A stretch of 64,000 bases of DNA from Brachionus manjavacas (lineage: Eukaryota; Rotifera; Eurotatoria; Ploima; Brachionidae), in the NCBI GenBank assembly GCA_019054805.1, contig JAHQIY010000007.1, positions 4,469,501 to 4,533,500 on the forward strand, in the 5' to 3' direction. Below the pieces are notes generated by a model, which saw nothing but the letters and a program-made list of their open reading frames with translations, was not told the origin of the DNA and searched no databases. Shown here one piece after another: positions 50,889 to 59,534 of this stretch. Each line of letters opens with the position of its first letter. Positions within the stretch are counted from its first letter, which is position 1. The position numbers were made by a program, and so were the translations under genes.

Positions 50889-50963
50889 AATGTTCTCTTT
50901 TTAATTTAATTGTTTATTTTATGATGTGAAATTAAATACACATCTTGTCAAATAATTTCTTTA

Positions 50964-50988
50964 TTTTTTTTCAAATATTTTAATTAGA
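50964..50988 (+). promoter_or_regulatory. splice-acceptor-like tract directly before the OVCA2 start
   Basis: A T-rich tract ending in CAAATATTTTAATTAG runs to one base before ATG. This is a 3' splice-site shape at the 5' end of a gene that lies 100 bases after AAGAB. It could be a spliced-leader acceptor or the end of a 5' UTR intron. The same tract is copied with the truncated paralogue at 52164-52303. Confidence 0.4.
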
Positions 50989-51687
50989 ATGTCTTCAAAA
51001 AATAATTCACAACTAGCAAAAAAAGTTCTAAAAAAAATTCTAATGATTCATGGATACCGTCAGACTGAAAAAGCTTTCAGAGAAAAAACCGGTGGATTGA
51101 GAAAGTCTTTGAAAAATTATGCTGATTTCGTGTTCTGTGAAGCGTGTCATACTGTTCCAAAATTAGATTGTGAAAATTATGAAATTGACCAAGCTAATGA
51201 AGAAGACAAAGGCTGGTGGTTTAGCTCTGATGACAAGCAATATAATGCATTATTACACACTGATTGTGATTTAGGATTCGAACAAAGTTTAGGGCATTTA
51301 GATAGAGTTTTTGAGAAACATGGTCCATTTGATGGAATTTTAGCCTTTAGTCAAGGAGCCTGTATCGGCTCAATTTTATGTCAGATCTCAAAAATTAATG
51401 AAACTGGCGAGCATAAGTTTAAAAATATTAAATTTAAATTTGCCATTCTAGTTGCTGGATTTAAAAGTGGACAGAGTCAGCATAATTTTTACTTTGAAAA
51501 AAAAATTCAAATGCCAACTCTTCATATTATGGGTGAAAGTGATAGAGTTATACCAAAAGAGATGTCTATTAGTTTATTAGATTTTTTTGCAGAACCAAAA
51601 ATTTTTGAACACTCAGGTGGCCATTTTGTTCCGACCAATGCACAAGCTAAAAATTCGATTGTTCAATTTTTAGACTCAATTCAATAA
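50989..51687 (+). CDS. OVCA2: OVCA2/FSH1-type serine hydrolase, copy A
   Basis: A single exon of 232 residues, the normal length for the family. OVCA2-type enzymes are small cytosolic alpha/beta hydrolases; the human member prefers long-chain alkyl esters. The N-terminus KKILMIHGYRQTEKAFREKT is the conserved HGY entry strand. The nucleophile elbow is AFSQGA with Ser121. The acid is Asp185 in GESDRVIP and the base is His212 in HSGGHFVP, so the triad is complete. A Cys-rich acidic insertion (about 55-95) with WWFSSDD is the usual lid region. It lies in tandem with a second complete copy at 52653 and a truncated one between. Confidence 0.9.
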   Translation: MSSKNNSQLAKKVLKKILMIHGYRQTEKAFREKTGGLRKSLKNYADFVFCEACHTVPKLDCENYEIDQANEEDKGWWFSSDDKQYNALLHTDCDLGFEQSLGHLDRVFEKHGPFDGILAFSQGACIGSILCQISKINETGEHKFKNIKFKFAILVAGFKSGQSQHNFYFEKKIQMPTLHIMGESDRVIPKEMSISLLDFFAEPKIFEHSGGHFVPTNAQAKNSIVQFLDSIQ

Positions 51688-52303: not shown

Positions 52304-52652
52304 TGTTTTTTGATCAAAAATTTTTCTTAATATTTCTTAATGTCTATAATATGTTAGCTGATTTTTAGTGGGTTATTTCTGGATCTAAAGCTTATTTAAA
52401 ATATTAAATAATCAATATATCTTTACTGAAGATTTTTTTAGTTTTAGGTAGAGATCTAGATTTTAAATTAAAAATCAATATTTCTTTATATCTTTTCTTT
52501 CAACTACTTCAAGTAGTTGAGAAAAATTTTGGAACAAATCTTTAGGATTTGTTAATTTTAAACCAAAAAAAAAACTACAAAAATAAACACAGATACATAA
52601 ATTTACAGTTCCATATAACTCTTACATTTTTAGTACTCTAAATAGTTTTTTT
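52304..52652. other. spacer upstream of hydrolase copy B
   Basis: AT-rich. A perfect small hairpin CAACTACTTCAAGTAGTTG lies at about 52500-52518. No other feature is visible. Confidence 0.5.
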
Positions 52653-53330
52653 ATGATGGAGATTGTAAAACCACTGCGTATTCTAATGATTCATGGTTAC
52701 CGTCAAAATGAATACATTTTTCGAGACAAAACGGGCGGATTGCGAAAAAATCTAAGAAATTTAGCAGAATTAATTTATTGTGAAGCGTTTCATGATATAC
52801 CGAAAGAGTACAGATTAAACCAAAATGAGGAACAAGAAGCTATAGTAAAATGTTGGTACTTAAAAGAGCCTGGATGCAAATTTGACTACGAGCAAGACTT
52901 TGAAAAAAGCATTAGGCATTTAAATGAAGTGTTTCGTGAAAAAGGACCTTTTGACGGCATTTGGGGTTTTAGTCAGGGTGCAACAATGGTAGCTGTTTTA
53001 TCAAAACTTTTAACCGATGATCAAAAGTCCCATCTTATTCCAAACGTTGACTTTAAATTCGCCATCATAGCAGCAACTTCTAAAAGTACTCAAAAAGAGC
53101 TTGATAAATTTTATGATCCAACTCGCAAAATCAATTTCCCTTCTCTTCATATTATAGGAAAATCTGATAAATTGGTCGATTATAAACAAGCCCTAGTATT
53201 GACTGAACATTTTAAAGACCCAAAAGTGTATATACATGAACTGGGACATTTTATTCCGGCAAAAAAAAATGATATAATAGTCTATTCAGAATTTTTAAAA
53301 GAAATGATAAATTATTGCAAAAAAAATTAA
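52653..53330 (+). CDS. OVCA2: OVCA2/FSH1-type serine hydrolase, copy B
   Basis: A single exon of 225 residues. It shares LMIHGYRQNEYIFRDKTGGL and the overall layout with copy A but is well diverged, so the duplication is old. The catalytic triad is intact: Ser107 in GFSQGA, Asp172 in GKSDKLVD, His199 in ELGHFIP. The lid region is shorter and differs (CWYLKEPGCKFDYEQD), which may change the acyl preference. Two adjacent Met codons begin the frame and either could be used. It is convergent with SPAG16, whose stop lies 65 bases beyond. Confidence 0.9.
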   Translation: MMEIVKPLRILMIHGYRQNEYIFRDKTGGLRKNLRNLAELIYCEAFHDIPKEYRLNQNEEQEAIVKCWYLKEPGCKFDYEQDFEKSIRHLNEVFREKGPFDGIWGFSQGATMVAVLSKLLTDDQKSHLIPNVDFKFAIIAATSKSTQKELDKFYDPTRKINFPSLHIIGKSDKLVDYKQALVLTEHFKDPKVYIHELGHFIPAKKNDIIVYSEFLKEMINYCKKN

Positions 53331-53394: not shown

Positions 53395-56300
53395 CTAAGA
53401 CCAAACTCTTAAAGTATTATCACAGCCTCCACTTAGAATGTACGAACCATTCAAATCAAAATTGACGCAATTAACTGCATCTTCATGAGCTGCTAGCGGT
53501 GTTAGCTGATAAATTTTAATTAAATTAATTTTTATTTATTAAAAAATTGTAGGCTTACTTGCTGGGATTGAATATTGAATGATTTTAAAGAACCATCATC
53601 ACTAGCAACCACTATCATAGTACCTAGGTATTTTTAATTATAAAAATGAAAAAGGTTAAGATTTAAGTCTTACTCAATGGGTTAAAAGCTATGCTATTTG
53701 CCGAATATGGTCCAAAGTCATGTGATTCAGTAACTGCTATTTTTCTTACATCCCAAAGTTTAACAATACCCATTGAATCGCATGAAGCAAGAGTATCACC
53801 CTAAAATTTAATATTTTAACATTAAATACAAAAAATTTAAACAAATCCTGTCAAATATTTTTTTTACTAATATTTCTGATAAAGAGCTTAATTTTTTCAA
53901 TCAATTTTGTTAATTATTTAATAATAGTTTTTTTACAACAAAGTTCGTGTCTAATTTTTATCGGCTTTATTTTTATTATAAGCTAAAAGTATTTAACTTT
54001 GCACTAACATTTCTTGAAAATTAAAGAATTAATTGTGAGACATAAATATGTTATATTATATCTAAATATTATATGGTATTTCTTTTATAAAAAATGTATT
54101 CAATTTTTGAATTTATATCAAATTTTACTTAAATATACCAACTGAAACTTAATTAAATGAAACTCATCACTTCACAGATATTATTTTGCTTGTTTTTTTT
54201 AAAAGAGAAACTGTATAATTTAGGTTAAATTATTTAAGATATTTTTTTAAATCTTGTATTTAATGAAACCTAACTCTCAAATTTTGAGTAAAAAGTCTTC
54301 TATTAACTTGAACTTTTGATCAAATCTGATAAAAAAAAAAATTTTCATGCTCCTTCAGCTAAGTAAACGAATCTAGGGTGTAAAAATAAACGTGGTCCAA
54401 AAAAGTAAGCTACAAAAAGATACTATCAATCTACGCTTTTTCGAATTTTAATAATTTTCTTTCAAATTGTCTTATTATGGTTTAAAACTAAAACGTCTAT
54501 AATTGTTATTAAAAATTAACTAATTTTCATTAACTCTTAATTAAAATTATTATTTAAAAGGAATTTAATGCAAAAATAAATAGTAGCCATTTTTATCTTT
54601 TTAATATGATTGAATGCTTAATTTTTAAGAATAAAAAAGTAAAGCTTACTCTTAAATTAAATGTCACATGATTGACAGAATTCATATGACCATAAAAAGT
54701 ATGGGCAACAAGTCCAGTTCTTGCATCCCATAGCGATATGGTCTTATCAGCTGAGCCAGTTAGGATTATATTCGAAAAATGCAAGAATTCGACAGAATTA
54801 ACCGCATCTGCATGTCCTCTCAAAGTGTATCGGGATCTCAAACTATTCAAGTCCCAAACTTTGGCAGTATTGTCTCTCGATGCAGAAACTAAAAAGTTTC
54901 CGCATGAATGCCAGCTAACATCCCATACAGCTTGCAAATGATCTGTAAATGTATGGATGCATTTTTGCTTTTCGAAATTCCATATTTTTACAGTCGAATC
55001 TCCGCTACTGGTGGCCAACATTTTACCACTAGAATAAAATTAGTTAATTTTTTCAAATACTCAAAAAAAAGCTTAAAAATACTTTGGATGAAAGTCACAG
55101 CCAGACACCCAATCGGTGTGACCATCGCCTCGCATAATCATTTGGCCATCAGGAATAGTCCACATTTTCCATGTTTTATCGTCGCTGGTAGTAACAGCTA
55201 TCATTTTACGAGGATGAATTGCAATGCTTTTTTTTAAAACTATTTTAAATAATCTAAATTAAATAATCTAGAGCAACTTACGAACTAATAGGTAAATTAT
55301 GAGCTTGGATTGTCTGAGACAAACGAATGCTAGTCAAATTGTGAGCATCTTCTTTAAGTCGATTCAAATAGGGATTGAGACCAGTCTCAGGTGGAAATTC
55401 ACTGTCCTTGGTTAAATAATAAATTAATTATAATAGCTATTGAATTTTTTTTTACTTTTGGATGTCGATTTGTAATAAATGGTTCCTCTGGCTTTTTTTT
55501 GTTCATTTCTTCTTTTAACAATTTTTCGCCATTACGGTAATCAAGCAGTCGCTTTTGAGTTGGACCAAGCTCCTTCTTGTCTGCTTTTTCCTCTTTTTAA
55601 TTAAATTAAATTAAATTTTTGTATCAAATTTTCCAGTAAGCGAAAAATTAAATACATTTTAAAGATCTTTAAAAATCTTGTTTATATAATGAACTTTTTC
55701 ATTTTTTTTAAAGGATCTAAGCAGGCTTTAATGCTTAGAGTTAAGTATTTTGAAATTTTTTTTATTGAATATATAAAAGGGTTTCATAAATAAAGAAAGA
55801 AATATTTGAAAGTTTTTAACTTTAAAACATTTTTATTTTCTATTAAACTTATTTAAACTAGTCTATTTCTAATATGGTACTAGCAGCAATTCTTTAAAAG
55901 TAATTCGCTAAAGACTAGATTAAGGAATAAAAAGATATTTATATTAAATATCTCTCAAAAATTTCTGAAAATTATTTAGAGAAAATTTGTTCAAAATCCT
56001 TTAAAAAACTCAAAAAAATTTTTCAAAATTTTTCTGACTAGGTTTAATATAAGTACTTGGTGACATGTTTTCATTTGACTTGATAGCGCCTAATTCTGCC
56101 ATTGCTCTGTCTCTTTCGAGTTGATTTACAATCTTGTCTCTGATTGCACCTTCATATTTGTCTTTCATATTTTTAAGCAAAGGTTCGTAGGTCTCATAGT
56201 GCAATTTTAGTCTCTTTAGATCAGTTATCAATTTATTCTTTTCTTGCGCAACCCGATTGTGATGCATTCGGTGATAGTCGCGCTCTTTCTTCATTTTGAC

Positions 56301-56980
56301 ATATTCTTCTTTTGCTTTTCTTAGGGCGAAAATTATTAAATTATTTAATTTTATTTTTTTAATTTTTACTCTGCTGCTTTTTTAAATCGATCAACTTCAA
56401 GCTGTAAAAATTTTACTTGGTCAGCCAACTGCTGATTTTTGGCGTAAATATCAGGGACAGTTCCGGTTTCGTCAGCTTTTAGCTTACCAGACTGAACGTG
56501 TTCGTACCATTCGTTCTGAAACGCGTTCAATGTTTTCAGTAAGTTTAATTTGACCAAAAAATTTCTAATAAAGTCATCGGTGGTTTCCGGAATAACGTGT
56601 AAGTCAGCTCGTGGAGGCGTTACTACCGTCAATTTATCCTTTGAACCGTCATCGAGTTTGGAAATTGCTATATCAAAATTTTCCTCATTTTCTAAATAAA
56701 TAATTAAAAAAAGATATAATCAAAAAAAAAAAAAATTTTTTTACCATTTTCATAAAAATCCTCAACAGGCACTTCTTCATAAACAAAATCGTCATCAATA
56801 TCTCTGATAAATTCCTCTTAAATATAAGAAAGATTTACTATTTTTTAGAGGTTTTCAATCAAACCTACTTTCTATAAAATAGGGAACATTGTCAATCTTG
56901 GACAAATCAATTTTTGGAATTTCATGGGCTGATTTCTTTTTTAAAAGATCCATTTTTAGAGCTGGTTGAATAGTTGCCAT
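53395..56980 (-). CDS. SPAG16: SPAG16/PF20, axonemal central-apparatus WD40 protein
   Basis: Eleven exons: 56980-56869, 56816-56745, 56691-56370, 56319-56039, 55592-55456, 55406-55282, 55226-55083, 55028-54650, 53800-53674, 53623-53559, 53505-53395. They give 624 residues, against 631 in human. SPAG16 (PF20 in Chlamydomonas) sits on the central-pair bridge of motile cilia and is needed for motility. The N-terminus has the family block TTDDFIRNFLVKLNLLKTL, then coiled coil (YVKMKKERDYHRMHHNRVAQ onward). The C-terminal half is a WD40 propeller: DDKTWKMW, SGDSTVKIWN, WHSCGNFLVSASRDNTAKVW, NIILTGSADKTISLWDARTG, GIVKLWD and GGCDNTLRVWS. The donor of exon 4 (A/GTCAGA) is unusual but is the only one that keeps frame. 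Intron 8 is 849 bases; the others are mostly 50-60, with one of 446. Confidence 0.95.
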
Positions 56981-57316
56981 GGTAAATTTTATTTATCTGT
57001 TTAATTTGAGTAAAGTATCATTCGATTTTTTCAAAATTTAAACCTGGAAGGGTCCAGTGAAAGTTTTGTACAGGTCCTTTGAAACAAATAATGAGCGTAC
57101 TAATAATTTTAGATTTACATAAACATAAAAAATCTGAATTGATGCTTTTTTCTTTCTTTTTTTATGCTCAATGTTTCCATGGAAACTATTTCTATACCAA
57201 AATTTCAAATAGAAAAAATTGCAATTTGAAATTTAAGATATTTTTGAACATACTTTTAGTTAAAAAATTAATTGAGAAAATTAAAAAAAAAAAGTTCCAA
57301 AGTTAAGAGTATCATA
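56981..57316. promoter_or_regulatory. bidirectional promoter region, SPAG16/C7orf57-like
   Basis: A 336-base divergent intergenic region between two probable ciliary genes. It includes the X-box palindrome at 57173-57186. No other motif is certain. Confidence 0.55.
57173..57186. promoter_or_regulatory. RFX X-box palindrome
   Basis: GTTTCCATGGAAAC is a perfect 14-base palindrome fitting the X-box consensus RYYNYY-N(1-3)-RRNRAC bound by RFX factors, the master regulators of ciliary genes. It lies 193 bases from the SPAG16 start codon and 131 from the C7orf57-like start codon. X-boxes usually lie within about 200 bases of ciliary gene starts. As a palindrome it can serve both directions. Binding itself is inferred. 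Confidence 0.75.
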
Positions 57317-58346
57317 ATGTCGATTTCACACCGTAAGCCAGAAGACGAAATTTGGTACGTGCATGCACCGCTCAAGAACGAAAAGCGTCCAATAGTTCCC
57401 ACTGTTCAGCCATCGAATATTCCTTATTTGAATGGAATCATGGACACCGAGGAAGAAATAAATAAACAACCAACTATTTGGTTCAAAGATACAGACAGTG
57501 AATTCGTTAAGTTATCCAAGTTGGGTGGTAGACAAGACCTTTTGATTCATCGGGTCAAGGAGAATCCTAAAGAGCCAAAAGGCTATCCTATTCCGTCATG
57601 GTGGACAGACATGCTGACCGAGGTTGTCACTGAAAAAAAAGAAGATAATGCGTAAATTAATTTTTTTTCTAAAGAATTCATATTAAATTTTGTTTCAGTC
57701 CTTATGAGTTTCAAGTACCAGCATGGTTTGCTCATCAGGATAAATCAAGTGTTGCCGATTTGAGAGCCAGAGAACACAAAATGGACCAATCTATCAAACA
57801 ACAAATGGCAAAGTAGAATTAATTTTGGCTTTAAATTTTTTTTTAATTAACACAATTAAGGCATGAGATTATTGAAGAGCCTAGAAAATATGGTCAATTG
57901 AGAAATTATTTGAATCCAGTTAAAATGAAATCGAATCCAAAGCGACAAGAAAATATTAATTTAGGCCTTAGACAAAAAAATACGTAAAACTTATTGTTTT
58001 AAATCTAGCTTTTTTATTAATAGTAAAATTTCAAGTGAGAGTACGACAACCATGCTCAAATTAATGTCAAATCATTATCAACAAGAACGTCCTAAAGACT
58101 ATAATGAATGGAAGAATAAAAATCTAGAAAGGTATAATTTTATTTAAAAAACAAAAAAATTCAAAATAAATAAATAAAATAATATTAAGTTTAACTGGAA
58201 CACCTTCGAGGGGAAGTATAATTTTGAAATAGATTCCAATTTTTTGTTGAATTTGTACTTTTTTTAATGAATTTATTAATAAAATAGTCTTTTAAAATTT
58301 TTAATTATTTATTTGATTTTTTTTCAGATCGATGGCGGATTTATAA
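57317..58346 (+). CDS. C7orf57: C7orf57-like protein, probable ciliary gene
   Basis: Five exons (57317-57651, 57699-57812, 57861-57983, 58036-58131, 58328-58346) join to 228 residues. Human C7orf57 is about 295. The diagnostic block IWFKDTDSEFVKLSKLGGRQ then DLLIHR matches the family's W-x-K-[ED]-T-D-S-E-[YF]-V-K-L-[AS]-K-x-G-G-R-x-D-L-L, followed by PSWWTDM. WYVHAPLK near residue 14 matches the N-terminal WYxHxPxK motif. A later segment, LKLMSNHYQQERPKDYNEW, matches the S-K-L-[IM]-S-N-x-Y element. The variable C-terminal tail of the vertebrate protein is missing. The molecular function of the family is not established as far as I know. Linkage to SPAG16 and a shared X-box support a ciliary role. 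Confidence 0.82.
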
Positions 58347-58890: not shown

Positions 58891-59464
58891 TTCGTTAAGG
58901 ACATGTCTGAATCCCTTTTGTTTTCGGACCCGAAAGGAAGGACCCTCATGAGAGTGAGAGGCTACTTAAATTACTACCTGGGGATTGCGGGGAAAGTGGG
59001 GCCAATTATAAATACTTTCCTCCGCATGACTGTAACCACACGGCGAGATTACTGGTGGTACATAAGCCTAATCCTAAAATGCGACAGGCTAAAGTTTAGG
59101 AGTCCCCCCAGAAGGCAGCGCATCTGGTATACGGATGCAAGCGAGTATCAGCTTGGGGTCGTTGATAGCTACTCGGGAAGGAAATTCTCAGTAGCCGCCC
59201 CAACGGAAGCTATACTCTTCAATGAAGCGGCTGCATCAATCATTCCAGGATTGTTATGCGATCACCCCGCGAAATTAAGGCTCTTTATTGACAACAGGGC
59301 GGTGATCGGACTCTGGAAAAGAGTCAGAGCGAAGTGGTACCGGTTCTACAGCACTGGGGCTGCCAACATGCATCGGTTCCTTTCGCTCATACTACTAGTT
59401 AACTGGATGAGATCGGTGTACGATATAAATGTCTCGTACGTGCCATCCGCCGACAATCCGGCGG
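58891..59464 (+). pseudogene. RNase H domain of a retroelement polymerase (copy 2)
   Basis: The open frame starts near 58903 and runs to where the flanking repeat begins. It shows the RT-connection motif MRVRGYLNYYLGIAGKVGPI, then an RNase H fold with four acidic positions in order: IWYTDASEYQLG (Asp), EAILFNEAAAS (Glu), LFIDNRAVIGLW (Asp) and SYVPSADNPAD (Asp). The arrangement fits polymerases of DIRS/LTR-like elements. The frame has no internal stop and is much richer in G+C than the flanks, which suggests recent arrival. RT, integrase or recombinase are missing. It is related to the scrap at 4394-4700. Confidence 0.7.
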
Positions 59465-59534
59465 ACGTAAATTCGTAAATTTTGCAGACAATCTTAATTT
59501 TTCTCTTAAATAATAATAAATTTTGAAAATTTTT
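59465..59534 (+). repeat. direct repeat, right copy
   Basis: Matches 58820-58890, beginning at ACGTAAATTCG directly after the NPAD codons of the RNase H fragment. Confidence 0.8.

Follow-up and report, generated by a model that had tools for sequence, protein, structure and literature searches.

The question raised by this locus is whether the palindromic word GTTTCCATGGAAAC, lying between two back-to-back genes, serves as an RFX-type X-box for both of them. We addressed it in a stretch of 64 kb, here called the window, which has 26.5% G+C and genes with short introns and belongs to a rotifer genome of 114 Mb in 61 contigs. The features concerned are as follows.

57173..57186, no strand assigned: palindromic X-box GTTTCCATGGAAAC, a putative RFX dimer site (exact match; seven copies in the genome, none of the backwards control)
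56981..57316, no strand assigned: intergenic stretch of 336 bases, the proposed shared divergent promoter
56973..56986, no strand assigned: a further X-box-like word, GTTGCCATGGTAAA, with one mismatch, which spans the first SPAG16 ATG (from the window scan)
53663..56980, minus strand: SPAG16 (PF20), N-terminal and WD40 parts (nine-exon model from the second ATG at 56953; provisional 3' end)
57317..58346, plus strand: C7orf57 (DUF5524), 228 aa in five exons (from splice sites and frame; PF17662, E 5.7e-17)
57317-57651, 57699-57812, 57861-57983, 58036-58131 and 58328-58346, plus strand: the five C7orf57 exons

The divergent arrangement of SPAG16 and C7orf57 proposed in the first-pass annotation is borne out by the proteins that the two genes encode. 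In a search of the PDB with the minus-strand protein, SPAG16 (9ijj chain Q, E 7.7e-132) and Chlamydomonas PF20 (7n61/7som, E 7.3e-124) took ranks 2 and 3 among 226 matches, behind 2ymu (E 7.9e-173), an entry labelled just "WD-40 repeat protein" whose best stretch lies in the WD40 part. The match to SPAG16 in 9ijj falls into two stretches, the best at 253-536, and extends past the WD40 repeats, and the ciliary assembly factor DAW1 (5nnz, E 9.4e-51) came behind SPAG16/PF20. The plus-strand protein matches Pfam PF17662 (DUF5524) with 62.5 bits, above the gathering cut-off of 35.6, and gave no significant match among PDB sequences (best E 0.95). We take DUF5524 to be the family of C7orf57, and also of the ciliary protein FCAP33, an assumption that agrees with the 292 positions of the Pfam model and the size of 33 kDa found in a passage of PMC12583597. 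A genome-wide search for a second SPAG16/C7orf57 pair found none, all four stretches matched by C7orf57 falling at this locus. Elsewhere in the window, two adjacent paralogues of FSH1-type serine hydrolases lie at 50956-51687 and 52587-53330 (PF03959, E 2.6e-58 and 9e-53), and an open frame of 195 aa just 3' of C7orf57 (58891-59478) looks retroelement-like by eye and has no Pfam match.

The palindrome itself is present at 57173-57186 as originally described. Its half-sites GTTTCC and GGAAAC flank AT, which fits the X-box layout GTTNCC/GGNAAC with a spacer of two bases, and it separates the two divergent genes, the minus-strand gene to its left and the plus-strand gene to its right. The spacing of 131-193 claimed for the two start codons also stands once coordinate differences are converted into bases in between, namely 130 to C7orf57 and 192 to SPAG16. 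The first SPAG16 ATG (56978-56980) is in frame with the second at 56953 and either may be the start; with the second, the gap grows to 219 bases. The distances of 130 and 192 bases fall in the range of 100-250 bp upstream of the coding sequence where X-boxes of C. elegans ciliary genes are often found according to a passage of PMC2873420, and an excerpt of PMC1794439 likewise puts most known C. elegans X-boxes within 250 bp of the ATG.

Within the window, 57173-57186 is the only place with two or fewer mismatches to the 14-mer. However, 100 shuffles of the window gave on average 0.27 such matches, with at least one in 24 of them; thus it is the exactness of GTTTCCATGGAAAC that is its unusual trait. 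When the window was scanned with GTTNCCATGGNAAC, two or fewer mismatches were again found at two places only, the GTTTCCATGGAAAC site and GTTGCCATGGTAAA, both within or at the edge of the intergenic stretch, and these two alone have no more than one half-site mismatch, where about 0.05 matches with at most one mismatch are expected per 64 kb. As a Met-Ala-Thr start by itself spells ATGGCNAC, GTTGCCATGGTAAA may be a real site or possibly a by-product of the protein sequence. A comparable arrangement was seen at another locus (L031, 2501-2514), where the X-box GTTGCCATGGAAAC has as its central ATG the predicted start of an oxidoreductase-like gene.

Across the whole genome, the exact 14-mer is far too frequent for chance: its seven genomic copies compare with about 0.38 expected and with none for the backwards control. 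The pattern GTTNCCATGGNAAC occurs at 97 places as compared to 1.7 expected and 4 for the control. Both expectations come from a first-order Markov model with the composition of the window alone as background. We examined 24 of the 97 GTTNCCATGGNAAC sites, namely the first 20 of 50 listed, three carrying the exact 14-mer, and that of the window itself. In 100,280 bases around 20 other sites, with the seed sites excluded, there was not one word with at most one half-site mismatch. An origin of the sites in a repeat family was considered and rejected, since the 2-kb flanks of the 24 sites have no blastn match in common at 1e-6.

Sites other than GTTGCCATGGCAAC also tend to lie at gene starts. Of the 16 examined, ten overlap a predicted ATG or precede one by no more than 450 bp, as compared to 2.0 expected (binomial 3.4e-6), and for all examined sites the count is 12 of 24 (binomial 8.6e-6). 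The background is the share of the window, 12%, that is no more than 450 bp ahead of a predicted ATG under the same gene-finder settings as used for the sites, and the figures are rough because the gene models of the window are incomplete. Adding starts placed by eye at three loci (L004, L042 and L023) raises 10/16 to 13/16, a count that has no matched background.

Which genes adjoin the sites was at first obscured by the method. Pfam searches of 192 open reading frames surrounding the first 20 sites of the list (minimum length 50 aa, with overlapping frames thinned out) returned mostly non-ciliary families such as cyclophilin, CHD1, pyruvate kinase, EF hands and ankyrins; this overview is too blunt, because most neighbours are hidden by short exons, and it was replaced by a small home-made gene finder trained on long open reading frames. 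All seven exact sites were examined, and three of them adjoin genes whose products match axonemal chains of solved structures: SPAG16, CFAP52 (PDB E 1.8e-47; 153 bp to the start) and STYXL1 (PDB E 3.8e-24; 89 bp), the latter two starts being placed by eye on the expected N-terminus. Three others lie 191 bp from the gene of a LKAAEAR-family protein (L030; Pfam E 6.8e-27), 84 bp from a gene for a 222-aa protein of no named family (L036), and 321 bp from the gene of a LRRC71-like protein, which has no Pfam match and nothing in the PDB below E 0.1; beside the remaining one no gene was found.

The 17 other examined sites include an X-box 65 bp from a SPATA17-like gene (PDB 9ijj, E 2.7e-10) and another 299 bp from a centrin gene. 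Among solved structures, 9fqr has chains of CFAP52, STYXL1 and Centrin-2, and 9ijj has SPAG16 and SPATA17. Further sites are found near genes for calmodulin (432 bp; a general protein), an ankyrin protein (345 bp) and a B-box protein (363 bp), about 80 bp from a WDR60-like gene, and over the ATG of the oxidoreductase-like gene mentioned above. The identities LRRC71, ZBBX (the B-box protein), WDR60 and NOXRED1 are presumptive, and PDB searches with the WDR60-like and LRRC71-like proteins matched neither identity. The X-box beside the SPATA17-like gene, GTTTCCATGGCAAC, lies within a second divergent pair (L028, 2363-2579), 65 bp from the SPATA17-like gene and 138 bp from a gene model that has both Fn3-associated and annexin parts.

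The textbook palindrome GTTGCCATGGCAAC behaves differently. It has 37 genomic copies (control 0), and none of the eight examined lies upstream of a recognisably ciliary gene. A predicted ATG follows two of the eight, as compared to 0.99 expected, which is chance level. Thus, a palindrome alone is no mark of a ciliary promoter in this genome. The copies examined (L019, L021, L024, L027, L033, L034, L037 and L038, each at 2501-2514) vary in their surroundings: some carry added symmetry, with TTG before and CAA after, at least two (L034 and L038) sit within long open frames, and the one at L027 is just beyond the 3' end of a polycystin-channel-like gene.

The relation was also examined in the reverse direction, with genes picked by Pfam family irrespective of the motif. 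The eight genes taken comprise four of the tektin, three of the TPH and one of the radial-spoke family, a weak radial-spoke match on C15 being left out. A site with at most one half-site mismatch was found within 250 bp upstream in three of the eight, and such a strong site is absent in the other five. Two of the four tektin genes are preceded by related strong sites: in one, GTTGCCATGGAAAC stands 157 bases before the ATG, and in the other, two perfect half-sites separated by GA stand 185 bases before it. In one TPH gene, TTTTCCATGGCAAC is found some 132 bases ahead of a predicted start whose placement is uncertain. The third tektin gene has two words with two half-site mismatches each, and the fourth tektin gene and two TPH genes have no such word upstream. 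The radial-spoke gene, whose start is uncertain, has a two-mismatch word and was kept out of the strong count. None of 24 control starts not beside a seed site has even a two-mismatch word within 400 bp; these controls comprise 13 starts from the window (SPAG16 excluded) and 11 from loci taken for their X-box, and include retroelement-like and doubtful predictions. The comparison of 3/8 with 0/24 gives a one-sided p of about 0.011 by Fisher's exact test, calculated by hand. Taken with the three of seven exact sites, this indicates that X-boxes are over-represented ahead of ciliary genes in this genome, albeit with small numbers.

A factor suited to such sites is encoded in the genome. A profile search detected one RFX gene, with the DNA-binding domain PF02257 (E 8.9e-33) and the BCD domain PF25340 (E 4.4e-98) in one open frame of 628 aa, and the best PDB match of its product is human RFX1 (hRFX1, 1dp7). 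RFX1-4 dimerise, and the protein found here is likely able to do so as well, because the same frame contains the B-C-D region. The first-pass annotation had predicted RFX control together with control of the FOXJ1 type. The former is supported indirectly, by the excess of the motif, its position at the starts in 10/16 sites, the ciliary neighbours and the RFX gene. In contrast, FOXJ1-type control finds no support, since the 336-base intergenic stretch holds two forkhead core matches (one ATAAACA and one TATTTAT) as compared to 0.82 expected.

The literature was searched for either gene and for the motif. Under Gm11992, which we presume to be the mouse name of C7orf57, it offers what looks, from the listing, like a cell-line name, and no literature was found under DUF5524. 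Spag16, Gm11992, Lrrc71 and Cfap52 are absent from the main text of the RFX2 spermiogenesis paper, and among papers on rotifer RFX and cilia none deals with X-boxes, judged by title and opening of the abstract. A common promoter of SPAG16 and C7orf57 was not found in a non-exhaustive search by titles, abstract openings and passages. SPAG16, RFX2 and FOXJ1 appear together in the same cilium gene lists in an excerpt of PMC6825243. The mouse homologue of C7orf57, FCAP33, is described in passages of PMC12583597 as enriched in primary cilia of IMCD3 cells, and C7orf57 is included among proteins of motile ciliated cells in part of PMC12772120. Furthermore, excerpts of the CilioGenics paper (PMC11317154) place C7orf57 among candidates with earlier experimental validation, and those of PMC6969427 make it one of ten asthma-COPD hub genes, the asthma-COPD module being enriched for cilium terms; in the relevant passage of PMC7515907 it is given only as a predicted partner of PKD1L1. 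The proposal that C7orf57 is a co-regulated ciliary component is therefore likely to be right, although its ciliary nature is not new, being already in print in the portions consulted of PMC12583597 and PMC12772120.

Considering these results together, we infer, with a probability of about 0.75, that GTTTCCATGGAAAC is a proximal-promoter X-box through which an RFX dimer drives SPAG16 and C7orf57 jointly; binding, activation and action on both genes are predictions. In this mechanism, the RFX factor of the animal would bind as a dimer to the half-sites GTTTCC and GGAAAC, the bound dimer would activate transcription in both directions, and ciliated cells would make the small ciliary protein C7orf57 together with SPAG16, which belongs to the central apparatus of motile axonemes. 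As the palindrome sits between the back-to-back genes, the two are probably switched on together. The locus illustrates a known control system well but is otherwise ordinary: RFX X-box promoters are the targets of DAF-19 in C. elegans, Rfx in Drosophila and RFX2/3 in vertebrates, and what differs here is that one putative site lies between divergent genes. The probable bidirectional promoter at Cep290 mentioned in a figure legend of PMC5245798 is likewise one promoter region facing two genes, although the gene pair differs. In the case of FCAP33, the passages of PMC12583597 concern the primary cilium of cultured IMCD3 cells and the mouse homologue, whereas here C7orf57 is tied to a motile-cilium gene.

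The same arrangement would be seen if the X-box were functional for one gene only, most likely SPAG16, with C7orf57 merely adjacent. Two X-box-like words do precede or overlap the start of SPAG16, and where other examined sites have a predicted start, it mostly lies on just one side. Nevertheless, C7orf57 is the nearer of the two genes to GTTTCCATGGAAAC, at 130 bases as compared to 192 for SPAG16, passages of PMC12583597 and PMC12772120 independently report C7orf57 as ciliary, and in the second divergent pair one X-box is flanked at 65 and 138 bases by the SPATA17-like and Fn3-associated/annexin genes, so we regard an action on one gene as unlikely, albeit far from negligible. Joint control could, on the other hand, reflect a closer relation than we propose, in which C7orf57, instead of being a ciliary protein of a general kind, would be a stoichiometric partner of the central apparatus that contains SPAG16 in motile axonemes, and one RFX dimer would keep both in step. 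The SPATA17-like gene has its X-box in another divergent pair, and its relative occurs together with SPAG16 in one solved structure. Such a partnership is an idea that we hold doubtful.

Explanations without RFX fare worse. That another factor binds the palindrome, or that it marks another process and its ciliary link is indirect, might be suggested by GTTGCCATGGCAAC, which is also in excess (37, control 0) and yet precedes a recognised ciliary gene in none of eight cases; but the genome contains an RFX gene with DNA-binding and B-C-D domains, and GTTTCCATGGAAAC shows the half-site layout and the distance of known X-boxes, which makes this very improbable. A mere chance palindrome in AT-rich intergenic DNA would be in keeping with the matches of two or fewer mismatches that arose in 24/100 shuffled windows, but is scarcely credible in view of seven exact genomic copies where about 0.38 are expected and the control has none, and of the axonemal neighbours CFAP52, STYXL1 and SPAG16.

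In summary, joint control of SPAG16 and C7orf57 by an RFX dimer at GTTTCCATGGAAAC remains our preferred reading. It would provide independent regulatory evidence that places the little-studied C7orf57 in the ciliary programme. Furthermore, the results indicate that the X-box code works in a small AT-rich animal genome, and therefore scanning for it could nominate uncharacterised ciliary genes, such as those for the LKAAEAR-family protein (L030) and the 222-aa protein (L036).
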